Notes under the pieces: generated by a model
What the model was told of the DNA's origin: nothing
Databases searched by the model: none
What the model saw: only the letters and a program-made list of their open reading frames with translations
Translations under genes and position numbers: made by a program
Assembly (NCBI GenBank): GCA_004123355.1
Contig: SCHM01000004.1
Coordinates: forward strand, 3,132,316 to 3,196,315
From: Amphirosellinia nigrospora
Taxonomy: Eukaryota > Ascomycota > Sordariomycetes > Xylariales > Xylariaceae
DNA: 64,000 bases
Direction: 5' to 3'
In this document: positions 4,355 through 55,373 of the stretch, one piece after another
How positions within the stretch are numbered: the stretch's first letter is position 1
Layout of the letters: each line of letters begins with the position of its first letter

Positions 4355-5778
4355 ATGGCAGCGGATCCTTTGGAAAGCGTCATCTCTAACGTCCCAGATT
4401 GGCTGAAGCGCTTGGAGGAGCTGAATAGTCAAATAGAACAACGGCAGCGGGATCTGGCTAAATTTTCTGGGGCGAGGCCACCATCGTCATCAGCCCAATC
4501 CATCCGTAATCGCGGGTCGACCGAATCTCTCAGGCCCCAAGACGACGGCCCGGCCCTCCCAACACCAGACCCAACCACGGATCAACCCCCTAAACCTATA
4601 AATACGGCTGTCCCCCCAGACCCCGAACGGACAACGCCGCTCCAATGGACCGCAGCCACCTTCCACCCCTGCCAGCGACCCGTGGACTGGCTCGTCACTT
4701 ATCCGACACCAACGAAGTCGTAGCCACGGCCCAGAGACGCGCTCGTGCAACTGTTCGCAAACGACAAAAGTCTGATTCGATGATCAGCGCTGAAGGGACA
4801 ACTCCTAAATACAGGTCGCGAAGGATGGTCATGGTCTATTACGACAGCTATGTCCAGTCTTTCTTCGAGGAGCTAGTCAAATTTGTGTCTGCCCAGCGGA
4901 ATCTTATGCGCAAAGCAAAGATGGCCGCCAAGGTGGCTCATATTAGGCGACTTGCTGAGCTCGAGATGCCCGAAGACGAAGACGAGGATGAAGGTGGCGA
5001 ATTGAAACCTGGAAATGAGTTAATTGCCGCGGGCCCCATCACGCCTGCTTCCAACAACAGACAAGGTGGCCCAGAAGAGATGCGACTACAGTATCTCAAC
5101 ACTCGCTCATATGGGAGTGGCTTAAGGAGCCCAGCTTCAATTTAATACCTGGGAGAGGATGAGAACAAGTGCTTGAATGGAGGGCTAGGACTGTTCAACG
5201 AGAAGGGTGACATCTGGGATGACCTAGATAAGGGCCTCGAGTATGTTCAAGGGCTATGCGAGCGTGCCGCACACCAGTTTCTTCGAGATGGTGACTGCAA
5301 TGAAGAGATTGAGAAGATCAAGGTTCGCTTAATGAAAGTCAAAGAACTGGCTATCGACGAGAAAGCACGCGTCTCGGCTGAGCAAACCAAAAACGATATC
5401 CAGCCCGAGCCGAAGCGTGACACAGTCAATGAACCTAAGCAGGACACAATCCCTGAATCCGGGCACGATCTGGTACTTGAACCCGATCACCATTTAGTTC
5501 CTGCACCAACACATGAGTTACCTGAACCCCAGCATGATTTGGTACCTGAACCCCAGCATGCTTTGGTACCTGAGGCCACACGAGATGCGGTGCCCCAGAC
5601 AGAACCCATGAAGTCTCGGACATTCCGCCGTCGACTATGCGAAGGGACTTTGGTGCGTTAACTCCAGCAAATTCCCCCTCGAGAGGGCCGGCTAGAAATC
5701 GACGAAGGAATCGAAGTGGACATGGACGATTTCAAACCGGTCTACAGATCGACAAGGCTGATGAGACGCCCTGTTTAG
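4355..5778 (+). pseudogene. conserved fungal protein of unknown function, disrupted
   Basis: The reading frame starts at ATG 4355 (MAADPLESVISNVPDWLKRL) and would give about 474 residues. The N-terminal segment is a short coiled-coil-like stretch plus disordered linker. A conserved-looking middle follows (VYYDSYVQSFFEELVKFV, then RNLMRKAKMAAKVAHIRRLA) and a helical segment (YVQGLCERAAHQFLRDGD). The tail is a degenerate acidic repeat of the EPQHDLVP type. I recall the middle blocks from unnamed Sordariomycete proteins and know no function. The frame changes once, between about 4640 and 4700. In-frame TAA codons lie at 5143-5145 and 5659-5661. Coding sense resumes after each and reaches a TAG at 5776-5778. 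Both stops become CAA (Gln) with one T-to-C change, which is the CpA-to-TpA change produced by RIP. Recent decay or sequence error are both possible. Confidence 0.7.
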
Positions 5779-7069
5779 GAGATGAATAACGGCTTATCAC
5801 CCATGTTCCTGGGAATGCTTGCATTTGGCACATATGACATGAAACAACATTGCACATAAAATCATTTATCGCATCACAACGCATCGCATCACATCGCATT
5901 GCATCACAACGGAGTTCCTTATCGAGTCGGACGAGCAATTCTATTTTTATCGCTCAGTTGGAATGGCCCGGGGGGTCAGTCTGAAAGCGCAAAATCACCA
6001 CCGTCCTATTACACGCCAATCTTCCCAACTGCGAGAGATATCAGTTAAATATATGAATTCAGGAAAAGTACTTCTGGCATATTTTGCATCGGGTAGCTGG
6101 GTGTAGTAGTGCCCTGGTGGTGAGCAGGCGACAGCATCACTGAAGGCAATTACATATTACCAGGGCGTTAGGAGAGTTTTCTCATGGAGTAGCGGAACAA
6201 ATAACCGTTCACGGGCGGCACACCCTGTTTATTTACACGTACATACTACTGGTTCTACATATTGGCCAACCACGAATCGGCAGGGTCTACCCGATAATCA
6301 TGTCTAGTTCGACTTGACGACAGAATGTCATCGTATCATGCCATGATACAAGGAAGAAAAAAAGGAAAGGGCAGAGGGCCTAACGCATCTATGAGCATCG
6401 AGGCAGCATTTTAAGAATAATCACCTGGGATAGTCATTGGGCCAAGCAAATAAGACGTAAATAAAATAACTTAATTTTCCAGAATCTGGCCCTCGATGCT
6501 TTCTTTTCCTTGCTTTTTTCCGGCACGTATCCAAAACACCAGTCTAATGGTGGTTTTTGGATTATGACGCGAATACCTAGGTAATAACAGCCAGGCCGAG
6601 ATCCCTTCTGGTTCCGCCTAATCCGGGGAGATATTGTAGGTGAGAGTGGCCATTCCATCACATGCAAAAGATACTAGGTAGGTAGGTACGCGGCATTAAC
6701 GTCAGGGCATCTATCCATCTATCATGCGAGTCTGACACTTGAGCTCTGTTTAAGGTATGTATTATGTCCGTCAATAGACTTAGACTTATCCCTTCTTCTC
6801 ATTATCGTCTCTTTCGTCATGCTTGGCTGATCCCATCATCCTGCCCCCTTCACGCCCCTACCCTTGCCCAACTAAATTATGGTCACTGTAGAAACTTTTC
6901 GGCTGGACATTGCCTAGTACACGTGACGGGGTTTATCTATGTACACATAGTTTCGACTTCTTTTCACCGGGATTAAACTATCGAGACGTGAGGGGTAGAG
7001 TTGGATGAGCCGGTTGATGGGACGGGATCATGGGTAATTACTAGTTATTCAACTTCTCTCCGGCTCCTA
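5779..7069. other. intergenic region between two 3' ends
   Basis: This lies between the 3' ends of the disrupted gene and the Zn2Cys6 regulator. Apart from a short CATCGCAT-type microsatellite I see nothing coding or structured. Confidence 0.6.
5870..5912. repeat. GCATC(A/G)CA microsatellite
   Basis: An imperfect run of GCATCACAAC, GCATC and ACATC units over about 40 bases in non-coding DNA. Confidence 0.75.
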
Positions 7070-9659
7070 TCAGAGATACTCGCTTAACACCGACACTCTC
7101 GTGCGCGCGGCGTCGGAGCCGTGGTCGCCGTCGCTCATTATTTTCATGATTTGGATCATGCGTGCTGTGATGTTCACGTTAGTCGCTGTTCGTTCGTTCA
7201 CACTGTGAACGGGGAAGACAAATAAGCTACGCTGGGGTTCGTTGGCCTAGACTCACTGATATCCGCCTTGGCCTTCGAGAAGAGCGGGTCGCGCGTCATC
7301 TGGTCGGCCGTGGCGGGATCGCGCGCGGCCTCGCGCAGCACGCCGCCTATGCAGAGGGCCTCGAGGAAGGCGCGGTGGTTGAAGACCCACCAGACGCGGG
7401 CCTCGGTGTCGAAGAGGGTGAAGAGGACGAAGAAGGCGGTGATGGCCTCGTGGGCGGCCTCGAGGGTGCCGCGGATGTTGACGGGCACGTCGGGGCTCTC
7501 GGAGGCGTGCACGGCATGAGGTTGTGGTAGTAGTTGGAGCTCAGGAACAGCGTCTGCCGCACCACGCGCTTGTTGCTGTTGGCCAGCTGCGCGATGCCGT
7601 CCTGGTCCCACGACCGGAAGATGTCGGGGAACGACCGGTACACGGACCGGAAGTCGGCCACCAGCTTCGACTTCTGCCGCTGCGTCGAGCAGATGGGCAG
7701 GTCCAGCGACCGCGGGCTGCATATCGTCTCCTGCACCAGGTTCGCGAGCATCCACGACCCCTTGATGTAGGCCGTGTCGGTCGGGTCCGAGTGCGCCACG
7801 TTGTACGAGTGCTCCGCGAAGTCGTCTATCCTCACGTCGGTGTGTGTCGCGCTTGGGGGAGTGAGAGTAGCACGGTTAGGAAGGTATCTTGAACTAAGAC
7901 GGCCTGCCAGAGTTTCCGCCTTTGCTGCTTCTCAAACGGCGAAGCCTCTGGTGTTACTATCAAAGCGTCAGTTGCGTCACGGCTTCAACAGCTAGTTGCT
8001 TATGTAAACGGCCCTTGCACGTACCGATATTAGGGTCCCTATGTAAGCCCATGGCGTAAGCTTGGCGCATGAGTATGCCGGCGAAGGCCCAGCCGTCTGA
8101 TGCGTGATTATCGTTGATGAGGAAGTAGCAGAGCAACACCATGGCCTGGACCGAGTGTATCGAGGCAGTGCTGAGGTAGGAGCTCATACGTAGCGCTTGG
8201 TTGCCGGCCGAGGCGTAGAACTCGGCCGTCTGTTTCCGATCCTGGGGATTCGTCGTCGACACGAACTGCGTGCCCAGGGCCAACATGACGAAGAGCAGGG
8301 CGACGAAGGAGGCGTCGGCCTGCCCCGAGACCTTCATCATCCAAAACTGCTCGTACTCGGCGTAGAAGCTCTGGCTGTGGACCATGGGGTAGACGGGGTC
8401 GACGCACTCAAAGTACTGGCTCAGCAGGATGTCGGCCTGCAGTTTCTCGGGCAGGACCCCGATGACCTCGGGGAGCCCGCCCTCGCACGTCCAGTAGTTG
8501 GCGAAGGGGTGCTCCGAGCCTATGCCGAAGACGTTGGAAGCTGTGGAATGCGAAAAAGGAATGTTAGAGAGTAGACCAGTGGACGAGGCGACAGACCCAC
8601 GCGTGGTCGTGTCTCCGGTGTGAATACCTCTGTCCGCTATGTTCGGCAACGCGGGCTTGATCCCGCTCGCCGACAGCTTCTTCTTAGGCGGCTTCGTCAT
8701 CCTCCTGCCGTTGGTGGCAGATCGCGTCGTCTCCCTTTTTGTGAGGGAACGTCAGTCAGACCAGAGTTGATCACATAGGAAGCGGAACATGAGCATGGGT
8801 GGGGGCGAGGTGAAGTGAGATGAGATGGGAGTTCTGCTCACTCTAAGAGGTTCGCGACATGTGCATAGCGACATTCTGTCTGTCGTTTTATGCCTAACCA
8901 CATGATCTATCAGTACCTGCGTCCAATTAAAGCACTGATGCGCACCAGACTTAGAGAGGCTTACATGCTAAGCAATGCGGCCTGCCTCTGTCACACTAGA
9001 ACTCGTTGAACTGTTAATATCTCTATCCTCGAGGAATCAATTAGACAGACATGTCACAAAAATAGGCAATGTGGTTCCGTCGGTCTCATCGAATCACCAA
9101 AAAACATGTCGACCATCCAGATCCCAGAGGCTGGCATTTTAAAGCCCTTGGGAAATGTGTAAGGCCTTCGTAAGCTATGGGTGCCTGCATCAGTACCACG
9201 TCGTACTGACGCAATACGCTCCTCCACCAGTAAATGGAAGGATTCATGTGCAGCATACATGCTTGAAGCCGATGATAGAAGGCGTTGTATTACATGAACG
9301 GGCTGATCCCGAATTTCTTTAAAAAGGGAAACAAGAAAAATTAAAATTGGCTAAAAAGCACTTACCTTTGTCTTGCGCTCAACACATTCATGACAGGATA
9401 GCGTCGGTTTGTTGCGCTTTTGCTTCTTTTTCAGGGGTTCGAGGGAAGATGGGCCGGCGGCGACGCTACTCCCGGTGCTGGCCCCGTCGTCCGGCTCCGA
9501 CTTGGCCAAGTAGAACGGCTGGTGGCCAGAGTCGGGTGACGCGTAAATAGAATTGGTGGAATCGGGGCTTAATATGCCAGGAGGCGAGTGGATCGAGGTG
9601 TCGATGGCGCCTTGGCCGCTGCTGTACGACAACGGCGGCGGGAATTGGGAGCTCGACAT
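7070..9659 (-). CDS. Zn(II)2Cys6 transcription factor with fungal-specific regulatory domain
   Basis: A nuclear DNA-binding regulator, target unknown. Splicing gives exons 9366-9659, 8965-8995, 8842-8893, 8025-8734, 7257-7956 and 7070-7164, about 627 residues. The zinc cluster is spread over the first three exons: SCHECVERKTK, then CDRGRPHCLA, then CIKRQTECRY. This restores a full six-cysteine CX2CX6CX6CX2CX6C motif with the basic RKTK segment. The middle carries the fungal transcription-factor domain (PF04082-like), with ECVDPVYPMVH and WAFAGILMRQAYAMGLHRDP. An in-frame 87-nt intron is likely at 8541-8627, since it has a CTAAC branch site and a CACAG acceptor. Exon 5 needs one extra base at a C run near 7847 and another near 7515 to keep frame. 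Both sides are otherwise conserved, so I suspect sequence error. The last intron has a clear CTAAC branch site. Confidence 0.88.
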
Positions 9660-32662: not shown

Positions 32663-33452
32663 GTTGGGCGATCTCGAGAGCGTACAACGCAGGGGAAGAA
32701 TTGGTGGTGGCCGATGGTGGCCTGGGTCACTTCAGGTCGTAAATGTAGTGCGGAATGATTACGGTAGGATATATCGCAGGCTAGCCTTTTTTTCTAAAAA
32801 GAGAATAAAATTCTCTTAAGAGGTATAGAAGATATGACGCTCAGAATCGAGGCGACGCCACTGGATTGCTGTATCAAAGGTGGAGGAGTCACACAGTGAA
32901 ATTTGAAGGCAACTCGCCCATTTCGAAATCTTTACGTGGGGTGATAACCCCGCCAAAATACTGTGACACTGGAACAAACCAGATTGCTGAGCCACAAGTG
33001 TTTCGCCTAGGCGCAGCTGGTACGGTAGGGAATCGCTACATGTGGCTAGCGTGTGGCTAGTGCGAGCATGGGTACACCGGCCGCGATCCGAGCTTCGGGA
33101 TGAATGTTCGGCCGACGGCTCCACCATAGGTCACAGGTTTTCAAAAGAAGCTTGTGATAGCCAAATGTCTCTAAGCAGCTCCTCTCTAACCTACCTCTGT
33201 CATCTAGATCTGTTTCTCTCCTCCGTAACTCACATCTATCCGCCCCAAATGTCCTTCTCACTTCAGAGCTGGTCAAACAACAGCTCCGGACTCATTCGGT
33301 TTGGATCGAGGTGCACCGGAGCATTCTTTTTTACCCATCTTTTCCGGGACCTTCAATTCGCGACCTCGAACCCTGCTACAAGATGAGATGCGCAGCAAGG
33401 TTGAGTCACTTGCGCAACTTCAAGTGGTCGTGACCTCTTCCGCATCAAAAAA
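32663..33452. promoter_or_regulatory. divergent upstream region of SUI2 and NTE1
   Basis: 790 bp between two divergent ATGs. It includes a poly-T/AAAGAG block near 32790 and pyrimidine-rich DNA before NTE1. No specific binding site is claimed. Confidence 0.5.
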
Positions 33453-36400
33453 ATGACTACCTCCGATTTCATCAACGAGCCTACGGGCTTGTCAAACGCT
33501 GTTTCAAGCGTCATGACCAGGTCCACAGCAACAGCGGCAGCCGTGTTGGCTCGGACACAGCACGCTGCGCAAACTGAGAGTCCGTCCTCTTGGCTTGGCT
33601 TGATAGCGAGACTCCTTCTTTTCATATTCCATATTCTCTCCACGATCTTGTACTGGAGCCTCAAACTTACGACTATTTCGGTGCCGAGTCTACTGTTCAC
33701 GTTCTTTTCGACAAGCTTGACGGTGACGATGAATGCTACAACATTGGCGCTAATACTATTCTTAATGTTTTCCGCTGTCACATGGCTCGTGCGATACCGA
33801 TATCTCAACATGTATTCGCGTCTACCGCCCGAGCCCCAGCGCAAAGAGCCAGAATTGGATCTTTTTGCAGGCGCCCATGAAGAAAGTGTGAAACCCGGAC
33901 TATCTAATTACTTAGATGAATTCCTCAGTGCCATGAAAATATTTGGTTACCTTGAACGCCCGGTCTTTCATGAGCTGACAAGGAGTATGCAAACTCGGAA
34001 GCTTATTGCCGGTGAAACCTTGAACCTTGAAGATGAACAGGGCTTTTGCTTTGTTGTGGATGGTCTCGTGGAGATTTTCGTTAAGTCTTCACAGCAGCGT
34101 CAAATGGCTACATCTACAACGGGATTCGGTTCGTCAGTAGAGTCATCGCTTACTGACGAAGAAGATGATCAACTCCCTGGTCAGCAGCGGTATCAACTTC
34201 TTACAGAGGTTCGAAATGGGAACCCTATGTCTTCTCTTTTCTCTATTATGTCACTGTTTACAGAAGATGTACACTTTCAAGCCCCATCAGAAACCCCATC
34301 GCGGCCTATCTTAGCCAACGAGGTTACTAGCCCTCGAATGCCATCCAATAGCAACCCTGCGCATCATGATGCAGCCGTATTTCTAAACGAGCCGGCAAAA
34401 TCCACGACTTTCAATGAAAAAGACACAATTAGGCCGGCATCGCGAGAAGAGGGGTCATATTTCCAGCAAATACCTCCGATATCTTTAGATGGCTCTTCCA
34501 CGCCACAACGACACAACCCACGTCCAAAAATAAAGAGAGTGGCCACTTCCGTCCATCCTGATATTATAGCAAGAGCCACAACTGATACCACAATTGCCAT
34601 TATACCTGCCAGCGCTTTTCGACGCTTAATCAAGGTGTATCCCAAAGCAACAGCACACATTGTACACGTTATCTTGTCTCGATTTCAACGTGTTACTCTT
34701 GCCACGGCCTACAATTATCTCGGATTAACTAATGAAGTGCTGCACACTGAGAAGAATATGATGAAATTCACAACCTGGCAACTGCCAAATCTCCTCCGGG
34801 GTGATGCTTTGGCACGGTTAAAGGAAAAGTTCAGCCAAGAGCGAGAAAGGGCCCGGGAAGAGGAAGCAGGCAAAGGAATTGCGCTACACAATGCGTCTAC
34901 TACTAGTCGTCGCCGTAGATCGTCGACTGGTCTGCGAAAGGAGGCCGCATTGCAAGCAATGTCAAAAGCTCGACCACAATCAATTGTTGCATCCACGATT
35001 GTACCTCCGCAGGAAAGACAGTCAATACATACTCCAAGTCCTGGGGATCTTATAGCTAATGTCCAGTTGGCCCGGAGCGGCGGCGCTTACCCATCTAGTA
35101 TGCTGGAGATTCCATTGACACAGCCATGGCAATCACCCGATGCCCTTGGTAAAGACGATGGAAGCCCCTTATCACAACATGCATTCAACCCTTCACCCAC
35201 GCAGAAGCGGGCTCGGCTGTCCATTTACCCCCGAGACTCATTGGATGAGGATAACTTATTCCGTCTTTCTATTTTGGAGTGTGTCTTCAAAACCCTGGGT
35301 ATTGAAGCCAGTGGCAGTACCTCAAGAGGAGGCCAGGACTCTATCGAAGGTTCTCCTCGATTTGTAACCTACGATGGTAGAAGGCAAAAGAATGCGCCCA
35401 ACAACAATGCCTTTGGGTTCATGTCATCATTTGATGGTTCCGCAGACTGGGATTCTGAATCCATGACGTCTGGCGGAATGTCAATGAGCGCAACTCCCAG
35501 TGCGCAAGTCCTAGCTTCAGAAATGAAACACGAGGTCGAGATAGTCTTCCACGAAGGATCGGTGCTCGTGGAACAGGGAGAACGAAGTCCTGGTTTATAC
35601 TACGTCATAGACGGCTTTCTTGATATATGCGTCCCTTCTGATGATCCCGGTAGCGACATTTTAAGCTCATCAAGCCGAACTTCCGTTAATGCAATGCATC
35701 AGGCGGATTCTCATGATGGAGCTCCCCGAGCGCCATCCGACTTCGGCGTCTCGAATGATCAAATCGCGCTGGAAAGAATCCTGACAGTAAACGTTCGGCG
35801 CCCCCAAGACGTCGTGTCGGCCTAGTGAAACCAGGCGGTATCGCGGGCTACATCAGCACAGTGTCATCATATCGATCCTTCATTGATGTCGTGGCTAAAA
35901 CTGATGTATACGTCGGTTTTATTCCACGGGCGACCGTTGAAAAAATGGTCGAGATATCCAATTGTCCTCTTGACAATGGCGAAGAGGTTGACGAGCTTAC
36001 TCCCACGCTTATTGCTGCATATCGATTTTGCCCTTGAGTGGGTTCAAGTTGATGCTGGGCAGGTCATGTTTAACAAGGATGAAGAAAGCGAAGCTATATA
36101 TCTAGTTCTCAATGGACGCTTACGTCTCGTAGAGGACAGACGGGATGGCGGGATGAATGTCCGGGCAGAATTTGGGCAAGGCGATAGCGTTGGTGAGTTG
36201 GAAGTTATGACCGAGTCGGCCCGCACTGGGACATTACATGCTATTCGTGATACGGAGCTTATCAAGTTTCCTCGTACACTCTTTAACAGTCTTGCGCAAG
36301 AGCACCCTAACATCACCATCAAAATCTCGAAAATCATCGCCTCGAGAATGCGACGCATGATTGATGCTCCTAGCACTTATGCGGGGAAGGACGTTGCAAC

Positions 36401-38209
36401 CGGCACCTCAATTAACAAGAGCTCATCAACGCTTAACATACGAACCGTAGCCATACTACCCATCAGAGCTGGGGTCCCAGTAGTCGAGTTTGGGAACCGC
36501 CTCATGAACGCACTCTCGCAGGTTGGAACTTTGAACGGCGCTACATCGCTGAACCAGTCTGCGATCCTCATCATCTTGGGAAACACACCTTTAACAGAAT
36601 GGGAAAGTTAAAGTTGTCCCAGTACCTTGCCGACCTAGAAGAGAAATATGGTCTGGTAGTCTATGTTGCTGGTAAGTACCCAGAACCTTTTATTACCTCC
36701 TCGCCTTATCATGATGAACACTTTACCCAGAGCGCCGACGATGAAGGCACAATAATACTCTAATTTTTTCCTGATTTCAAGTTCCTTTATACTTTGCTCT
36801 TCGCATTCTAGATGACTCAATCGGGCTAATGCAAGTCGGACAGATACAAGCGTCACCGCCCCTTGGACACAACTTGCATTACCCAGGCAGATTGTATTTT
36901 GCTTGTGGGGTTGGCAGAAAGCTCGCCTGAAATCGGCGAGTACGAGAGATTCATGCTCGGGACGAAGTCGACAGCCCGGAAGACCCTTGTTCTTCTTCAT
37001 GCTGATCGCGACTCAAATCCAGGCTTAACCAGGTCTTGGCTGAAAAATCGCGTTTGGATCAATGGCGGACACTACCACATGCAAATGTCCTTCGGCGCCA
37101 CCGCCATTCCTGTTCACCCCCTGGACCGGCTAAAAAGGGCGGACCAACCCTGAAAGAGCGTGTGCAGATTCTGCAAGCTGAAATACAAAGGTACACTACA
37201 CGAAAAATCCGTCAGCGACCATACTATTCACCCGACACGTCCTTCAAAGGCGATTTCCAGAGGCTAGCCAGAAGGCTTTGTGGCAAATCTATTGGTATTG
37301 TTCTTGGGGCGGCGGTGCCAGGGGTATTGCGCACATCGGAGTAATAAAGGCTATCGAAGAAGCGGGAATTCCAATCGATCTGGTTGGTGGTACATCAATA
37401 GGCGCTTTCATGGGCGGACTTTATGCTCGCCACGCCGATGTTGTGCCCATGTATGGTCTAGCCAAAAAGTTCGCCGGGAGGATGTCAAGCATGTGGCGAT
37501 TCGCCCTAGATTTGACTTACCCTTCCGCTTCCTACACCACAGGCCACGAGTTCAATCGAGGAATTTTTAAGACGTTTGGTAAACATCAAATCGAAGATTT
37601 CTGGCTAGAATTCTATTGCAACACTACAAACATAAGTAAGAGCAGGGCTGAGATACATACGAGTGGGTATGCCTGGCGATATGTTCGTGCGTCTATGTCC
37701 CTCGCAGGACTATTACCACCACTCTGCGATGAGGGTAGTATGCTGCTGGATGGGGGTTATGTTGATAACTTAACCGTTTCACACATGAAATCTCTTGGTG
37801 CCGACGTAATATTTGCTGTCGATGTTGGTTCCCTAGATGATGATGCCCCTCAAAGCTATGGGGATACCTTATCGGGCATGTGGGCATTCTTCAACAGGTG
37901 GAATCCCTTTTCTTCAATACCAAATCCTCCTACTTTAGCTGAGATACAAGGCCGACTAGCTTATGTGTCCAGTGTCGATGCCCTTGAGAGGGCCAAGACA
38001 ATGCCAGGATGCATCTATATGCGCCCCCTATTGATGACTATGGGACGCTGGACTTCGGGAAATTTGATGAAATCTACGAGAGGAGTTTCAAATACGGACA
38101 AGATTTTCTCACTCGTCTAAAAGAAAAAGGCGTGTTACCTCTGGTAGAGGAAATCGAAGCTAAGAAAGCACTCAGGCGGACAATGGCACCCCGGCGCGCA
38201 AGTATTTGA
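33453..38209 (+). CDS. NTE1: lysophospholipase NTE1 (neuropathy target esterase homologue)
   Basis: An ER phosphatidylcholine deacylase. Exons 33453-36671 and 36844-38209 give about 1530 residues, the usual fungal length. Two N-terminal membrane helices are followed by three cyclic-nucleotide-binding-like domains ([44 protein letters not shown]). A C-terminal patatin domain has the Gly-rich [11 protein letters not shown], the nucleophile in GGTSIGAF and the Asp of the dyad in LLDGGYVDN. The first 790 codons are clean. Seven frame changes follow, near 35805, 36025, 36575, 36860, 37120, 37310 and 38027. Six fit one lost base, mostly in G or C runs. Catalytic residues are all present. The intron acceptor GGACAG restores ADTSVTAPW. 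Confidence 0.93.
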
Positions 38210-44646: not shown

Positions 44647-46328
44647 TTAAACCTCAGCAAGCGTCTTTTCGGCAGCAGCAACTAAGATCTCGAAGTGCTT
44701 CTTGACATGATGCTCCTCCACGAACGGTGTCGCGGACAATGCCGGATGGCGAACACACCCCCAACAACGGTACTCGACATAAAAATCTGACCGTCAGCAA
44801 GCACGTCATCATATGACTTCTTAGTAAGTGCATTGACCTCTTGGACAGTCGCCGTCTGGCTCTTGCTCTTAAGCTTGAACACTGTCAGTGCAAACCGTGG
44901 GCCGGTGATGATCTCGAATAGATCGGGGCGGGTGCGTAACATCTCCGCGAAGTTCTCAGCCAGCTTGATGTGCTTGCGGATGTGCGCCTGCAGCCCACTG
45001 ATGCCGTACATGCGGATGACGAACCAGACCTTGAGGCTGCGGAAGCGCCGCCGAAGGGGATCTGCCAATCGCGGTAGTCGGTGACGAGCCCGCTATCGGT
45101 GTGGGCGTTCTTGAGGATGGCGAGGTTGACGCTCAGCGCGTCGGTCAGCCAGGTGCGGTCGCGCACGTACAGGACGCTGCAGTCGAAGTTGACGAGCAGC
45201 CACTTGTGCAGGTTCACGTTGTAGCTGTGGAGGCGCGGCGCAGCGGGGCGTCAGGTGCTGGTACTCGGACACACGAGGGCGGAGCCGGCGTAGGCCGCGT
45301 CCACGTGCACCCAGACCTCGCCCTGGCCGTCGCCGCTTCTGCGCGGGGGTCAGCGTCGCCGCCGGGGCCACGTCGTCGTCCAGCACGTCGGCGATGCCGT
45401 CGAGGTCGTCGATGGCCACGTGTCCGTCGTGCCGAACGTCGCCGTCACGTAGAAGACCTCGAGCCCCTTGGCGTGCAGCGCGGCGATGGTGTTGCGCAGC
45501 TCCGCGCCCGTCATCTTGTACCCGTCCTCGGCGTGCACGGGGACGGCGCGGAACCGCACGCCCGTGATCTGCGCCGCCTTCTTCGTCGCCGAGTGCGTCG
45601 CCGCCGAGCCGAGGGCCACGAGCTTCGTGCGCCGCAGCGCCATGGCGTCCTCGCGCTCCTCGTCGTCCGTGATGTGCGCCGTGGCCTCGCGCAGGTACTT
45701 GTCCCGCGCCGCCACCATCACCGTCGCGATGGCTTCCGACGCCGTGCCATGGATCACGCCGCCGCCGTGCGTGGGACCCGTCGAGAGGTAACAGGGCGGC
45801 AGGGCAAAGGCCCGCGCCAGCCAGTCCAGCACGATCGTCTCTAGCTCCGTTACCACGGGGGAGCAAACCCAGTTAAACGCCGCTCCGGTGAACGCCGTCG
45901 AGTACATCTCACCCAGCATTGCTGGGTAACTGCTAGAAGAGGGGAACCATGCCAAGAAATTGGGGGATTGCCTGTTGTCGCGGTTAGTTAAGAGTCCGTA
46001 AGCTTGAGGTTCAGGAACCGCAGCCCGTCGTCTTTGGTTACCGTACCAATGCGTGATACCCGGGAGAACTTTTGTCTCGATATCTTTCTGAATATCTGCC
46101 CATGTCTCTCCGTCCTGCGGTGCTTCTTCTGGTAGCAACTTTCTCAGATACCCCGGCTCCACGGTGGAGACCACCGGGCGGCTCTCAACGGTGTCATAGT
46201 ACTTGACGACTTTAGAAAATGAGACATTAATACGAGTCTTTCGTAACTTTAGGGGAATTAGTCGGAACTTGGCACTCACTCTCGTCGATGGATGAGATAG
46301 CTGCTTCTCGGAACTGTTGAGAGTCCAT
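44647..46328 (-). CDS. PLP-dependent group II decarboxylase (aromatic-L-amino-acid decarboxylase-like)
   Basis: A cytosolic PLP enzyme that would decarboxylate an aromatic amino acid. Exons are 46280-46328 and 44647-46209; corrected length is about 538 residues. The start is [16 protein letters not shown], and the junction gives [10 protein letters not shown]. Family blocks are [77 protein letters not shown] with the PLP-binding Asp, and [15 protein letters not shown] with the Schiff-base Lys at 45203-45205. Five frame changes occur near 45425, 45265, 45243, 45060 and 44752, each consistent with one lost base in GC-rich DNA. The substrate (Trp, Tyr or DOPA) cannot be read from sequence. Catalytic residues are intact. 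Confidence 0.88.
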
Positions 46329-48490
46329 AATCTGAAAATTTTCGAAGTGTAGTATTCTAATGTGTTGAGTTTCTTCTTTTTTCCTTTGTCGTCTCTCGTA
46401 CAACTCCAACGAGTGAAATGAGATCTTCACAACATGCATTATACTTTTTATATGAAGTCTTGAGGCGAGGTGAGCCGCGAGAGAGGGGCAGCGTGCGGGT
46501 CCGACCAATGTGGGTGTCGTGCGATTAGATACATGTCATGATGTCTTCGAAGGGCGCAAATATTGACGATATTGTCAAAATTGTCAGTTTCTTGTCAAAC
46601 TCATGCCAGTTCTTTTCGCTTCCCTGTCGACATCGTATGATTTCCCTTTGCTATTCCATCAGAGCGGTAGACAATGTTAATTTCATTCGTCAGCTTATAC
46701 CTACTTCTAAAATCACCGATTGCGGACAGGCCTTCATACATATAAGTAGATCTCCCTAAATCTAGAGTCAACCAGTTACAACTTTACGGCTTGTCTCTTT
46801 GACTTTTCGCTCTAATAGATTACGTCTGCCCAAACACTGTTTCATATGCGTATACCATTCGATTGGGTCGAGAGATATACCTAAAAAGATATAATTCAAA
46901 ATACCTAATATGTTGGAACGGATGTGGCGGCAAAACCCCAAGTTCCGTCCATCTACTAACCCGGGCCCTATTTGGCGCTTAAAAGCGACATGGTGAACAC
47001 GATTGGGCCAAGACTTTCCGGCATAGCCAGCAGCCCCTCTTCGCCGCCAACACCAGACCGAGACGCTAGCCATGCAAGGGTCGCATTTGAGTATGCCATA
47101 AGGGAGGCAAGTAGTCTCAACGTGGCAGCACCAAAATTTTAGATTCGACTTCCAACTGTTGGAAACTTGACTGACAAAGGAAAAAGTGAGACACGGGACT
47201 TGAGATGGATATTTCAACCTTTCCCCCAAGAAGTCACCAGAGGCTGAGGTGCACAATACTAGATCGAGTATTTTGCTCTTTTTGTCCGTATAACTATATA
47301 CATACTGTAGTATAAGTTATGACTGATCAAGCGATAGCTCGTCTACTACGAACTAGACTACGAGATGGTAGCCTAGCGTACTGGATGCCTATATGCCACG
47401 ATAAAGGAGAGGACGTAGTAAATATAAGTCAGTTTTGTCTAGGCTCAATTAGGCGAAATCAACCTAGACCAACCTATATGGTGAAAATAAGCTATTCGAC
47501 CCCGTTGACGACCGCACATCTACCATGTATATCCCAACTCAGCCGCAGATGAGTCCCTTGCCTTACCAGATCATCTAGGCCTGCCCCTGATTCATTCGAA
47601 TGCGGATCCCGGGTAAAACGTGAGTCAAGCTTTTCTCTAGGCAACTAGTGGTGGCATGGTTCTGCCTCGAGTCTGCCTGAATCCGTCGCGGAACACGCCA
47701 TCGCTGATAGCAGGCTAACTGAGGACACCGACCCTTGTCCAATCAATAACCAATTGACCGCCAATTGCAGCCTGGCGATCTGTTGATGCATGTATGTAAA
47801 GCTAGCTGAAATACGCATTATTCGCTGGTCGAGATTCAGCTGGCGATCCTTCGATAAGATGGAGACAGATACAAATAGCTTCACCTCGACTACAAAATGG
47901 GGTTACTTCCATTCCCTATTCCCATCTCCATTCAGTATCATCAGCTTATCTACGGCAATTCTTCCCGCCCTGAGCCTCACAACGTTGACTCGCCTTCCGT
48001 TAACCCCCTGTCACGTTGTCTCTGCCTATATTCATCATGTTGGGCAACCTAAGGCAACCTCGAACGCGCCGATTCTATCGACAGTTTCGAGGAGGTCAAC
48101 ACTAAGGTATCAAGGCCTCTGACCCAGAGTCCAATAGTGTCCTCAGGTCGACGGCAAAGTTCCGCCGGTTCTTCATGTCCTAAAGTACATCGGCTTCATG
48201 ACGCCGTTGTGGAATGTTCGTCAGAGCTCACACCGTTCAAGCACATTCCCCAGTTCAAGGACAAAGATGCAACCAATACTCAGATCGGCGAGTACGGCGA
48301 AGTGATGATGACAAACCCGTTCTTGATATCATCTACAGATGAGCAAGCCCGCCCACACCTATAGACGGCGATCGCGGTAATCCAATGAAAACCCATCACA
48401 GCCAGTTTCGACCTAAACGATATCGTATGATGACGACTCTGACGATGATGGCCAGGCTGCCGCTACGTCAGCCGCTAAGCCGTCATCACT
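46329..48490. other. intergenic region, possibly with undetected 5' exons
   Basis: Decarboxylase upstream region and the region before the AAA ATPase. The last kilobase may hold N-terminal exons of the ATPase gene, but I find no frame I can defend. Nothing else recognised. Confidence 0.45.
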
Positions 48491-50441
48491 ATGAACATAC
48501 ACTCCCAATACCCATTCATGCCCTCCAGGCCGTCATCACTACTACCCACGCGTAAACCTTCAGAGTCTCCTGTCGGCATCCCGGCTCCCTACCGCCTCCT
48601 TTACCTTCACCGCGCTGAGCTCGCTCACTATCGCGACAACCAACCCAGTTCCCATAGCCCGGAGTTGCCGAAACCACAGCTCGTCATATCATTGTTGCTC
48701 AAGTTTCTTGCTGATAATATGGGCGAAACTTTGCAAAGGAGGACGCCCTGCACAAGATGGCCCATCCTTCGCCACCTTCGATCTTTTCTGGCTACTGTTG
48801 AAGCCTGGCCAAATCATCTATGGCAAGCGCTTTGGCCTTTGGACCCCATTCGTTGTCAGTAGCGTCAAAGCTGGCTCAACCAACGATTTCAGTCAGTACA
48901 AGGTCCACTGCTGGTTCCTAGAAAGCAATGGCGTCGTCGTCAGGCGCTACATGGAAACCTTCCGTGTCCAGCCTTGGACCGGCGAGCAGCTTATCAGCAG
49001 CCTTCCCGTCATTCCAGAGGCGTTCTGGGTCGAGGACAAGGCCGCCCAGGGTGGGAAGACTATGAAACAAAAGTGTATCGATGAGGGCCGGTTATACTGG
49101 GACTTACTTAAGAAGCCAACCTACATGCAATACGACGGGATGCTTGTCAACCCCTCGTCTGGAAATGGTCAGTGTGCAGGTCCTACAGGCAAGTTGTCAG
49201 GGCGCGTCATCTGCGACCCCGTCGGCTTTGATCGCTTCTACACTGCATCTCCAGATCTGAATGGCAGTAATCGAGCCAGTCTTAATTCGTCACGGCAGGG
49301 CTCGCCCATGCCACCACCATTGGATCATCTCCCACGCGGTCTACCTCGCTGTGGTTGTGATGCCTGCGGTAAGAGTCGTGACCCTACTCAGGGCAACGAT
49401 GGCCCCTACGCTGGGTTCAAAGAGCTGGATGCAACCAGCGATGAGCCTCCGAAGAGCGAGGTATTCTATCATGTCCTAAGCAATGTCATCCCTGGCTTCA
49501 TCCCAAACAGTCGTCGTTGGGCGTGCCTAAATCTTGGCTCCCTGGGGCCAATTAAGGCCAACAAAGATGCCTTTAAGGACCTAGTGCTTGATGATGAGAT
49601 CAAAATGACTGTCAAGGCCCTGATTGGCAAATTCGCCACTGAAGCCGAGGGTCGCTTGCTCCCATGGAACACCGACTTTGTGCAGAATAAGGGCGATGGT
49701 CGCATCTTCCTGCTTCATGGTACTCCCGGTGTCGGCAAGACGTCCACGGCCGAGTGCATCGCCGAATCAACCAACCGACCTCTCATTGCCATCACCAGCG
49801 GCGACCTTGGCGTCGACACATACCGCGTCGGGGAGTCATTGAAATACTTCTTGGACCTCGGACAACGCTACGGCGCACTGCTGCTGCTCGACGAGGCCGA
49901 CGTGTACCTCGAGCGGCGTCGCTCCAAGGACATCACCCGTAACGGGCTCGTGAGCACCTTCCTGCGTGCGCTCGAGTACTACCGCGGCGTGCTCTTCCTC
50001 ACGACCAACCGAGTGCAAGCTTTCGACAGCGCCTTCTTGAGCCGCATCCACGTGTCGCTGCACTACAAGAACCTGCGAGACGAGGACCGCGAGCGCATCT
50101 GGGCGAACACGTTCGAGCGCCTAGAACGAGAGTCGAACGGCACCGTCCGCATATCGACGACAGCTCGAAGCCTGCTGCTGAGCAGCACAAATGGCAGCAA
50201 TGCCGACAGCCGGATCCGGTTGCTCAAGTGGAACGGTCGGGAGATACGCAACGCCATGCAAATGATGCTGGCGATGGCCGAGTCTGAAGCGCGCGAGGAG
50301 GGTAGCAAGGTAGTGACAGTCGGCCAGAAGCATGTCTCGGCTGTAGTCAACTTGAGCGGAGAGTTCCGCGACTACCTGAAGAAGACGACACCGGTTGAAG
50401 GAATTCTAGATGTAGAGGTCGAAGGCGATGATTCCGACTAA
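48491..50441 (+). CDS. fungal AAA ATPase with DUF7025-like N-terminal region
   Basis: A fungus-expanded AAA family of unknown substrate. The N-terminal region (LAHYRDNQPSSHSPE, FDLFWLLLKPGQIIYGKR, WFLESNGVVVRRYMETFRV) is the conserved domain found before the ATPase in these proteins. The AAA core has Walker A HGTPGVGKTSTAE, Walker B LLLLDEADVYLERR, sensor-1-like FLTTNRVQAFDSAFLSRI and a C-terminal lid (LLKWNGREIRNAMQMM). From 48790 to the stop the frame is clean (about 550 codons). Before that there are several one-base shifts (about 48670-48780), so the start at 48491 is provisional and upstream exons may exist. It is convergent with the trypsin-like gene, whose 3' end is only about 285 bp away. 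Confidence 0.85.
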
Positions 50442-50726: not shown

Positions 50727-53700
50727 TTACAGCCACCACTCATCGACGTTGTCTGACGGATAGTTTTTACCCTGCCGTGAACCAACATAATAGTTGGGTT
50801 CGTCTGATAAATACTCCGCCGCTTCTGAGAAGAAAGGCACAGTGGGAGGTTGTAGCACCACGGGTTTGGGTTTGGCCGGTTCTGGCGGCTTGTGCTCGGG
50901 TAGCTCCGTAGGCAATTCTACCGGTGTCATAATGGGATATAGTGAAGGCCCCTGCTGCACACGGTGATCCAGCCGGCTTCGGCGATATTTTTCGGAGGGT
51001 TCAGTTGGATATCCCGATCCTTCAGGAACCGTACGGCCAGCTCCGATCATATATGCAGGATTATACCTCAAAGGCTGAGAATAACTCTGAGTTAGGCCTC
51101 CCCATGTGCTAGGAGCATAGGACTTTGGGCCCAGAGTACTTGACATTACAGAAGACGGCTTCCGAGATGGTTGAAGAGCGGTAGCATCAAGTTCTAAAGC
51201 CACGCGGTTTAAATTCTGCAACCATTGCTGGGTCGATCGGTGATGAGCTCCGGTCGGCGATGGAGGCTCGGTCATCTCAGGTTGACTTTTCCGAACACGA
51301 GTCCGGCGCCAAAGAAAAACGGGAACTATGCATGGCGCGAAGGGTATCCATGATAATATTGGCCAGAGAATAGTCAGCGCTCCAAATACCCCAAAGCTAG
51401 CAGCCCCAGACGACGGCTGAAAGAAATCTAGGCCTACACGAGCCGTGAGTATACGTCAATCGCTTGAGAGTTGGTCTCGTCTCATACCTTGGTTCTGAGT
51501 AACTCTTCCGAACGTGTATCCCGCGAGGGCATCAAATCCAGTGGACACCATCCACAGCCCAGATGTCAGAGAAACTGACGATTTATTATCACCGGGTTGC
51601 TTTATAATATACCACGTGAGGGTTGGAGAAGCTGTAGATAGAAGCATCGGTGCTGCTGCCGCTGCCGATGCTACAAATAAGGGGCGCTTGTCTACATATA
51701 TCATATAAGAACGTGGTCTATAAGTGATAGATGATTAGACGTACTTACCATGTATGCCTAATACTTTAGCTAGGTAAAGTGCAGCAAGTGAAGTTCTCGC
51801 GAAACTTGATAGTAATATCACCACCGTACTAAGTCCAAATCTCACAGCAGTTTTTAAAACTATGGGGAGTATACACGATGATTACTTTTGGAAGAAGTAA
51901 AGAGAACCTCATGGATGAAGAGGTGCCAATCGTATTTCGAGAAAAGATAAATGAGTACAATCTGAAGGACCACTGCGCAATCTAGAATTAGTAACCACTA
52001 TATATGTGCGGCTTGGGCCTTACGCTCTTGAAACCCGAAGGGGGTAAAACGTTCTTGGGTTTAGGTCCGTGGAGAGACGGGGCAGAAGTGGCTCATAGAC
52101 TACTTAGTACTTACTCGGGCTTGCAGAAATTGTGCCAGCTACTACCCCCAAAGACGCGGCTCTGCCGATGTCAATGTGGAATAATCCTCGGACATTCCCT
52201 CTCTCGGCAGCGAGGAGGACCATCATTGCCGCGATCCCAACAAGCCCAGCGAATGCAACCATTGGAATTGCTGTCAAGAGTAGAACAGCTGAAAAGCGAT
52301 TGGACTTCTTTGTCAGCATGAAGCCGAAGGAATTCTCACGATTAGCCAATATTGGATCACGGGTCGTGTGTCCTCCATCTCGATTGTCTCGCGCTGCTAA
52401 ACGAGAAAAATAAGCCCGACCGGTCGCATGTAATATAATCGTTATTAACAGAAAGGGTGGGAAATGGGGCACATACGGGGATCCAAAGTTACCGTAGCGT
52501 TGCCTTCTATTGTATAATTTCCTTGTCGATTTACATTTTTTGTGTTCGCGATGTAAGGTTTGGCAGCAGCCACGAGACGAGAAAAACTTCAAGTTCAAGT
52601 CCATTGAGCTCTGGCCAATGCTTCGCAAGCCATTGCCGTTCGTGAGGGATGTTGTCTAGGAGATCAACACCGTATTGTAATAGTAAATTCTTGAGGGCAT
52701 CCACACCAGCTCCCTGTAACCGCTGAGCATTCGATGCTCCCTCGCTCTCGATGCTTGGTACGCCAATAAGAGTCTTTATGGCTGGTAGACACCAAAACCC
52801 ACGCATTTGCCTCAATGTTCGTGGAGAGAGGGCTTCATTTATAAGCCACTCGGCAGAGAGATCGTTTCGATTGAACGCGATGTGGGCACATTGCACAAGA
52901 GTTCGGAATACTGGCGCTAATGATGCCTGAGGGCTCTTTGTTGTTGTTATAGGCATCTCGTAAAACTGGTCCTTTAAGTGAATAAAATGCGCCGCGCCAC
53001 GTGAGGTAGCAATGACTGAGCCAAGAACCTTGTATTGGAGGGGATCCGAAGTATCTATGGCCCACGACCCGGAGTCCCCCTTTCGGAGCCCTGCACACCG
53101 GGAGTTTAGCATTCTGGTCGCGATAGAAATCATATCAAAATACTAGAGACTCACTTTCGTCGTCGTCGAGAAGAATTGACCAAACTTCCAACACTCCATC
53201 TGTGCCACCCCCAGCTATAAAGGATGTGCCTGTTGACACAACCCCAGAAGAACCAGCCGTAGAACCAGTGGCAATGTAAGATGTAGAGCCCGGATGAGGG
53301 TCGGATATCTCGTCCAGATAATGTATATCTAGGTCACCCACGCCCTTCCCTTTTTTCGTGCTCGACTTCTCGATGAGATTTGGAAGAATGGAATAATCTT
53401 CGATTGGGATGAGGCTCCATTCCCGCCCTTTTCTGATCGTTCCATTTATACTTAAGTCTTTCCAATCCGGACTACTCTCAGAAACAGGAGATGTAGGGCT
53501 ACCTACGTCCCTCGGAGCATCAATCAAACCAGGACCATCAATCCCACTCGGAAGGTCACCAGAGCAGAACACAAGCGGACCTTCTGAACCTAAAGGAACA
53601 TCGGTCTCCACTAATGTATCTGAAAGAGAAGGGGCGGTAACCGACGAGGGCTCTGAAACGCCATGCTGGCAAGTCATGAGATATGTAATCCCATCAACTT

Positions 53701-55028
53701 CGACTAGCCCTCCGAAAGTAGAAATACAAATCTGTTCATTGACGATCGTTCTCGAAAGTGACCCACAATACGTCATGTCACCCTTAACGGGCTTGTATTG
53801 ATAAAACGTCTCCGTGGCGTCGTAAAGGACCTCTCCAGGTTCATTGGTGATTTTTTGAGAGGCTTGAAAGCCTTCGATGTCAGGGTATCCGACATGAGAA
53901 ATATCAGACGTCTCGTAACAGAGCCTCAACGGGTCATATAGCGGCTTATATCGCTTGTGAGACATTGCAGAGTGAATTCGTGTGATATCGGCGGCGTTAT
54001 TCAAACCCTGAACACATATGTAAGGGGTTGGGATCCCTCCATTTTCCCTGACTTGTACCAAGCAAACTCTGCAGAGCGGGAGTTCCTTGCCGAACAACTC
54101 AATCTGGTCCTTTTTGGAGGCAAGAATCCTGGAGAAGCTACGGAGCTTCTCTTTATTGGCCACCGAAAACTCGACATCTTCGATCTTCACAGTACTGGAG
54201 CTCGCAATTCTCAACTGCTTCAGCCTCTCAAGTTTGCTACGGGGTATGTGGACTTTAGTAGGTTTCCAGCCGGCATATCGAAGAGGCTCCTTTCCTTTAG
54301 ATGACACGGCCGAGCTTCCGCTAGGGAGCTTTGGAGGCTGGGATGATGGCTCTTGAATAGTGGGAATTGGGTGCACTTGATCCTCATCTATACTCTCTAG
54401 GGCACCAGAGCGTTCACCAACATCGACACCACTGTCAGCTTGCGTACTGTCTGTCTTGTCCGAAGTCGTCTGGCCTATTTCTAGGCCACTCGTACTAGAA
54501 GAAGTTGCTGGTGTTGCCGGTCCAGGCAAAATTGTTGAGCTTGGGTTATTAGTAGGAACGCTTGTGCTCCCATTCCTTTCGGTGGGTTTTGCTGAGCATA
54601 TGGTTCTCTCTAGAGAACGCATCCCTATTGCCTGAAGAGGCTCCGTAACATTCGGTAATCCAGACGAGGGGCCCTTGAGGGGGCCGGTTTATTAGTCTTC
54701 ACATTTTGACGTTGGTGTAAGTATTCGCCAGGGGTGACGCTCTGCCCCTGGATCCTATTAGCTTGGTCACGCGTTCGCGCCTCCGTGTCGTTTTGGATCT
54801 TATTCTCCCGTCGACGAAACAGTCGAATCTTCGATGCAAAGTCATCAAGGGAGGCAATGTCTGGCTTTGTGTGTAACTCATTGGCGTTGGATTCCTCTCT
54901 AACCTCGTTGGCCAGATGTCTCGAAAGCTAAGAGTCCGACACATTAGCCTGTATCTATTCGTCATGCCGAGGTTAGCGTGGGTACTGACTTTGAGCCCAG
55001 ACTTTGATATGGTTAACGTGATTGACAT
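50727..55028 (-). CDS. multi-span membrane protein with trypsin-like serine peptidase domain
   Basis: A large fungus-specific protein of unknown function. Exon 1 (54990-55028, MSITLTISKSGLK) joins exon 2 (53155-54927) and exon 3 (from 53090 leftward). Residues to about 330 are mostly disordered. A peptidase-like domain follows: FGGLVEVDGITYLMTCQHG with a candidate catalytic His near residue 435, REWSLIPIEDY where an Asp might be expected, and LRKGDSGSWAID with the candidate Ser straight after the intron. Downstream exons encode several membrane helices: VLLLTAIPMVAFAGLVGIAA (about 52.3 kb), LQIVLIYLFSKYDW (51.9 kb), FGLSTVVILLSSFART (51.8 kb), a hydrophobic segment near 51.6 kb and one near 51.35 kb. 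A Pro-rich tail ends YPSDNVDEWWL. One G is missing near 54680. Exon joins between 52.5 and 51.5 kb are approximate. Confidence 0.68.
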
Positions 55029-55373
55029 TTCTAATCCCTCATAGGAAAAAAGCAGTCAGACGCGCTCAGCCGTCTTGGCCTGCGAAAGTCACATAGATTG
55101 AATGGAAACACTAGGGTGCCAGAGCGGCTGCGCTGCTACATTTGACGCGCTGTTCTGAATCCGACACCGACACCGACACCCTCCAGACCAATAGTATTAA
55201 ATGGCAGCGGGGTCGAGAGATGAATTTCTACAGCGCTGCGCCACTTCAGCCGCATTCCCCAAACCTACCTAGGTACTTTTTCTAACCTCTTTCGCATAAT
55301 TCGCTTTTTGCATGGTCATATTGGTAAGACCACATCTCACTTATAACGAACAGAGTCATTTCTATTATACCTA
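55029..55373. promoter_or_regulatory. bidirectional upstream region
   Basis: 345 bp between the divergent ATGs of the trypsin-like membrane protein and the single-span membrane protein. It carries a CGACACCGACACCGACACC repeat and a CTACCTAGGTAC motif. Co-expression is an inference. Confidence 0.5.

Follow-up and report, generated by a model that had tools for sequence, protein, structure and literature searches.

Trypsin-like peptidase genes recurrently paired head-to-head with genes for predicted membrane-anchored proteins in Amphirosellinia nigrospora

Within a stretch of 64,000 nucleotides of the Amphirosellinia nigrospora genome (assembly GCA_004123355.1, contig SCHM01000004.1, positions 3,132,316 to 3,196,315; hereafter the window), a gene on the minus strand, read from 55028 down to 50727, appears to combine a trypsin-like peptidase domain with a series of membrane segments. 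The locus raises the question of whether this is one protein and what such a protein might do. A first-pass annotation, made from the letters of the window alone, had suggested a membrane-tethered protease or a sensor with an inactive fold, and mentioned that similar domains are at times linked to conflict systems. We find that the gene belongs to a peptidase family of the same genome, and that members of this family recurrently stand head-to-head with genes of a second family, whose products are predicted to be membrane-anchored. We give roughly even chances to the possibility that the gene is half of a two-gene module, consisting of a peptidase and a membrane-anchored partner, that would work in the manner of the fungal protease/gasdermin or NLR/HET-S pairs.

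Searches covered the source genome (48.1 Mb in 11 contigs), whose gene families, such as fungal AAA lid, fungal transcription factor and HET domains, are those of a fungus, and all recurrence counts refer to that genome alone. The peptidase domain is encoded at five further loci, which we designate L042, L043, L044, L047 and L062. Only the GDSGSW pattern and the partner family brought this paralogy to light: the exons of the window gene found only themselves, except for the last exon, which had four weak further places (E 0.017 to 0.27). By itself the pattern is no evidence, as it occurs at 23 genomic places compared with 15 for the reversed control; of the 23 places, ten have an open frame with such a motif, and three of those ten belong to the family. 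For profile searches the exon pieces of each domain were joined, with an X at every join. A profile of the five paralogues matched the window domain at E 3.4e-7 and 26.5 bits, and the reversed window domain was absent from the list of matches; because the best of 2000 shuffled sequences scored 8.2 bits, the family relation is not attributable to chance. When each of the six domains was left out in turn, every real domain (25.8 to 69.5 bits) scored above its own 1000 shuffles.

A profile of all six domains, the window copy included, listed 17 distinct PDB sequences up to E 10 (best E 0.01), among them viral nsp4-type proteases, staphylococcal Spl proteases, AlgW, DegQ, DegS and viral capsid proteases. 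From their names we take all 17 to have the chymotrypsin fold, and in both printed alignments the His motif and the Ser motif each align. Single-sequence phmmer searches of PDB with one window exon and L044 found no protease, giving one match at E 2.5 and two more at about 1, and were set aside. In Pfam, Trypsin_2 (PF13365) matched two paralogues weakly, L047 at E 3.1e-4 and L044 at E 0.0035, both below the curated cut-off; the protease-core pieces of L042, L043 and L062 had no match, and five pieces of the window gene had none at E up to 1, so that neither Trypsin (PF00089) nor Trypsin_2 was called by its own cut-off.

Three elements of the motif set are invariant across the six domains: T41 and H44, which form a Thr-x-x-His motif, and the GDSG nucleophile motif, present in 6 of 6. 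The window's TCQHG aligns with TAGH, TMAH or TVHH in the paralogues. At the place of the catalytic Asp expected in clan PA the window domain carries Glu, as the first-pass annotation had correctly seen: its EWSL occupies the same alignment columns as the DWA of L042, L043 and L062. By eye, L044 has DYA and L047 has DIA, both of which the alignment places elsewhere. Glu at this position occurs in some chymotrypsin-fold proteases, such as the enterovirus 3C protease. By sequence profile, these comparisons show the peptidases to be a family and place it in the chymotrypsin fold. The trypsin-like fold proposed in the first pass is in this way backed by the profiles with weak to moderate strength, while a single-sequence AlphaFold2 model of 238 residues, from which the GDSGSW exon was left out, says nothing either way (mean predicted local distance difference test score, pLDDT, 31.6; predicted template modelling score 0.20).

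The genomic setting of the peptidases proved the most informative feature. The genome was searched for the partner family with three of its members, and a locus was counted if any of these searches matched it at E up to 0.001; ten loci qualified, and flanks were read at seven of them. The nearest recognisable upstream gene was divergent at 7/7, and at five (the window, L042, L043, L044 and L047) it was a trypsin-like protease gene. Of the other two, designated L046 and L063, L046 has in this place a gene for an NB-ARC protein (E 8.6e-11), and L063 has a HET-domain gene (E 3.6e-21), about 2 kb off across an unannotated gap. Measured between first in-frame ATG codons, which are proposed starts, protease and partner lie about 345 (window), 638 (L042), 298 (L043), 1003 (L044) and 1098 bp (L047) apart. 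When six proteases and ten partners were placed at random in 200000 trials, at most two of the ten partners fell within 4 kb of a protease. Most pairwise identities between copies lie at about 18 to 40% (50 to 51% among the L044, L047 and L063 partners), and therefore most of the linkage looks old. The partner gene had been missed in the first pass, and together with two of its relatives, one next to an NB-ARC receptor and the other near a HET-domain gene, it strengthens the link to conflict systems that was raised there.

For the window pair we propose the following features, with predicted exons modelled from the sequence and with GT and AG ends located in the assembled letters:
54990..55028, minus strand: exon 1, with the proposed start ATG at 55028 (ATG and GT donor seen in the frames)
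53155..54927, minus strand: exon 2, low-complexity N-terminus and first part of the trypsin-like domain, with CQHG in the His position and EWSLI in that of the Asp; frame broken at a C-run near 54.68 kb (517-codon frame, intron, paralogue profile match)
52477..53090, minus strand: exon 3, GDSGSW, end of the trypsin-like domain, and linker; break at a T-run near 52.58 kb (frames; tblastn to L042)
52115..52396, minus strand: exon 4, strongest predicted membrane segment (mean hydropathy 2.47) and a weaker one (frames, intron ends, hydropathy)
51749..51981, minus strand: exon 5/6 stretch, one weak and one clear predicted membrane segment; break at a C-run near 51.87 kb (frames, intron ends, hydropathy)
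51488..51691, minus strand: exon 7, weak hydrophobic segment (intron ends, hydropathy)
50727..51416, minus strand: last exon, clear predicted membrane segment, then a Pro-rich tail up to the stop codon (frames, intron ends, hydropathy)
55029..55373, no strand: shared upstream region of 345 bp between the divergent proposed start codons
55374..56545, plus strand: divergent partner gene, with a soluble N-terminal part, a WT-x-NL-x-DHL-type motif and one C-terminal membrane segment resembling a tail anchor; four open pieces, 3' end approximate (frames, family searches, hydropathy)

The 517-codon open frame (54688-53135) contains the low-complexity N-terminus, CQHG and EWSLI, and GDSGSW is encoded one exon later, beyond a GT-AG intron at 53154-53091. 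Exon 3 matched L042 by tblastn at E 3.9e-5 when 14 fetched loci were searched. A search of viral contigs found no relative. On its other side the gene lies tail-to-tail with an AAA ATPase gene (48495-50441, plus strand), which has DUF7025 and a fungal AAA lid (PF23232, PF22942, PF00004).

The partner also contains a D-x-P-x-P...W...RR motif, and its C-terminal hydrophobic segment (2.48) is followed by a short tail; such a segment was found in 6/6 partner copies tested (1.84 to 2.78). The partner pieces given to Pfam yielded only chance-level matches and nothing above cut-off. They had no gasdermin match at E up to 1, the reach of the Pfam models to fungal gasdermins being unchecked, and a partner profile had three weak PDB matches, the best at E 0.35. 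Besides the window, the family comprises C1:7725516, C1:12021544, C6:3683041, C6:1418392, C4:2657477, C4:781140, C8:1070605, C1:13025684 and C1:4367543. We excluded C1:3829761 and C4:7216838, which match the variable tail alone, as well as C7:176233 (E 0.14), C1:5410040 (E 0.67) and C5:1152785, a 42-residue frame at E 0.009. Two of the regions read merit mention in their own right. In L046 (C4:776500-786400), the stretch 4611-8869, where a partner-family gene stands head-to-head with the NB-ARC gene and the latter has a weak DUF7779 match downstream, is possibly a separate receptor/effector pair. The 10 kb of L045 (C5:1148000-1157900) hold, besides a HET-domain gene, a frame that resembles a serine protease and has GDSGGS; a weak partner-like match of 42 residues lies between the two.

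The first-pass annotation had described one gene of four parts. The low-complexity N-terminus, peptidase domain, hydrophobic stretches and Pro-rich tail were all found, but three frame changes that it had missed interrupt the gene, near 54.68, 52.58 and 51.87 kb, with a homopolymer run at each. The assembled letters were used unmended at all breaks. The three breaks have 17, 2 and 7 GT-AG stretches of 45-150 bases that keep the phase, none of them with consensus ends; applied as a control to two accepted introns of this gene, the count finds 4 and 2 candidates that do have such ends. The partner's four pieces also change frame, with 1, 0 and 2 consensus-end candidates at the three changes, and introns may account for one or two of them. 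Elsewhere in the window, an NTE1-like phospholipase gene (33405-38120, plus strand) changes frame twice within about 0.4 kb with no consensus intron, and a glutamate decarboxylase-like gene (44700-46426, minus strand) seems by eye to change frame too, both judged by how such proteins are expected to continue. The assembly seems to carry base errors in coding sequence. Because a conserved gene of the same window breaks alike, assembly error is a more likely cause of the peptidase breaks than decay, and decay was judged unlikely after the NTE1-like comparison and the counts of intron candidates.

Downstream of the peptidase domain, successive exons encode six hydrophobic 19-mers with mean Kyte-Doolittle values of 2.47, 1.25, 1.28, 1.74, 1.40 and 1.84, whereas none of the three opposite-strand frames over the same stretch, taken as a control, reaches 1.6. 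The earlier estimate of about five membrane helices was a fair count, but the clear segments number three (2.47, 1.74, 1.84), the others being weaker (1.25, 1.28, 1.40). Among the peptidase pieces examined, a multi-span module occurs in the window copy only: those of L042, L044, L047 and L062 have no stretch of 1.6 or more, and one downstream piece of L043, which also carries its DUF7896, has one hydrophobic stretch (2.14). The C-terminal parts of the peptidases vary, with DUF7896 in L043, a Cys/His-rich part in L044 and a coiled-coil-like part in L047 (the latter two by eye), and membrane segments in the window. The Cys/His-rich part of L044 recurs at C5:7073897 (E 7e-36) and C8:763223 (E 1e-29), which may be a sign of a mobile C-terminal module.

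We regard it as likely that protease and membrane module form a single polypeptide, as the first-pass annotation held, but the join spans the break near 52.58 kb and, that break having no consensus intron, is not directly readable from the sequence. The assembled exon-3 frame meets a stop at 52531, and with the module unseen in the paralogue pieces this could mean two genes on one strand, the first for a soluble trypsin-like protein that stops near 52.53 kb and the second, downstream of it, for a membrane protein. We consider this improbable: the break sits at a homopolymer with no consensus intron bridging it, and another frame is open across it as far as a consensus GT-AG intron at 52476-52397. 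Frame changes in both genes, three in each, with consensus introns lacking at those of the peptidase, would also be expected if the breaks were real and the pair were two decaying pseudogenes. That reading we hold to be very improbable, given the homopolymers at all three peptidase breaks, the similar changes in the NTE1-like and (by eye) glutamate decarboxylase-like genes, the introns that possibly underlie one or two partner changes, and motifs and remaining splice sites that are intact.

If the pair is a two-gene module, the peptidase half would sense a trigger and act on the membrane-anchored partner, either cleaving it or being held by it until release, and a local membrane or cell-death response would follow. 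The window peptidase would have gained its multi-span module and so share a membrane with its partner. Catalysis, substrate, trigger and outcome we infer by analogy with known pairs. More tentatively, the loci may represent an unrecognised fungal regulated-cell-death or self-recognition system, in which a chymotrypsin-fold protease sensor and a tail-anchored executioner are encoded head-to-head, the executioner family is also wired to NB-ARC or HET-domain proteins, and one copy is a membrane-embedded protease. The tethered peptidase domain could instead be catalytically dead and serve as a scaffold or sensor that binds the partner. EWSL in place of the DWA expected from the paralogues fits this, as does a leave-one-out score among the two lowest (26.5 bits; L047, 25.8), but His and the full GDSG are retained and Glu can serve in proteases of this fold; we think it somewhat unlikely. 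A housekeeping couple for membrane processing, for example in quality control, with no role in conflict, is unlikely. It draws its appeal from the fact that the pointers to a death or immune role are gene neighbours alone, yet a fungal recognition system would better account for the low identity among copies, the diverse C-terminal parts and the NB-ARC and HET genes next to relatives of the partner.

Several observations weigh against the two-gene module. The PDB matches of the profile are weak even at their best (E 0.01), the structure model is uninformative, and the window enzyme, having Glu in place of Asp, could be inactive. In the region before the protease domain, a comparison with the paralogues failed to report the window even at E 100 while it did report shuffled sequences, so we claim no shared pre-domain. 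In the L043 partner, the N-terminal piece is hydrophobic over a further stretch (1.75). The binomial estimate for five or more pairs, 2.5e-13, is inflated by the L044 and L047 peptidases having been found via their adjacent partners, and copying of pairs as units would inflate it further. One of the six peptidases, L062, whose flank lay outside the reading, had no partner in the three partner searches, and the neighbours of three of the ten partner loci are outside the count. Finally, the genome holds at least 151 HET matches, and one would fall within 4 kb of any of seven places by chance with a probability of about 0.16.

In the mostly open-access literature searched, no paper contained GDSGSW or a second motif, GDCGSW, and none combined trypsin-like with allorecognition, fungi and NLR. 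In the main text, "trypsin" is absent from PMC10197012, PMC12881547, PMC3321046, PMC9815663 and PMC9262711, and appears in PMC4986451 in a reference only. The novelty of the arrangement in print is to that extent partly tested.

Clusters of two genes, one for a sensor that is in many cases a protease and one for a membrane-acting executioner under its control, are an established arrangement in fungi. Protease genes, mostly of the S8 or CHAT type, accompany about 80% of fungal gasdermin genes in clusters (PMC10197012, PMC12881547). Like these clusters (HET-Q1/HET-Q2 and relatives), our loci have a protease gene adjoining that of a putatively membrane-acting partner, and proteases that are multidomain and variable. 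Unlike theirs, the window protease is of chymotrypsin type, no S8 or CHAT match having been found in Pfam for the peptidase pieces given (the window, L044 and L047 among them), and its partner, with a membrane segment at the C-terminus, matches no Pfam family over cut-off.

The nwd2 and het-S genes are divergently transcribed neighbours in Podospora (PMC3321046), and NLR/HET-S-type pairs, as described there, resemble ours in being adjacent and, in some species, divergent; the partner-family gene at L046 likewise faces an NB-ARC protein. HET-S differs in having a HeLo domain and an amyloid motif, whereas the partner pieces given had no HeLo match in Pfam. No STAND receptor adjoins the window partner, NB-ARC being seen at L046 only among the seven loci read.

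In bacteria, trypsin-like domains are recurring effectors of conflict systems (PMC8195603), and NucA-trypsin systems include trypsin-like peptidases fused to membrane segments (PMC7159879). The window gene differs from the NucA-trypsin systems, which are bacterial and have a NucA nuclease; its adjacent genes encode the partner and the AAA ATPase, and NucA is not among these two, the more distant window genes having been only partly scanned. It shares with the bacterial trypsin-type systems a peptidase accompanied by membrane segments. In the reviews covered, the protease/executioner pairs of fungi combine S8 or CHAT proteases with gasdermins. If our reading is right, fungal immunity would gain a module in which a further protease fold is joined by another kind of membrane protein, one whose family is also found opposite NB-ARC and HET genes; this would supply a ready pair for testing and have a parallel in the bacterial trypsin-type conflict systems with membrane segments.

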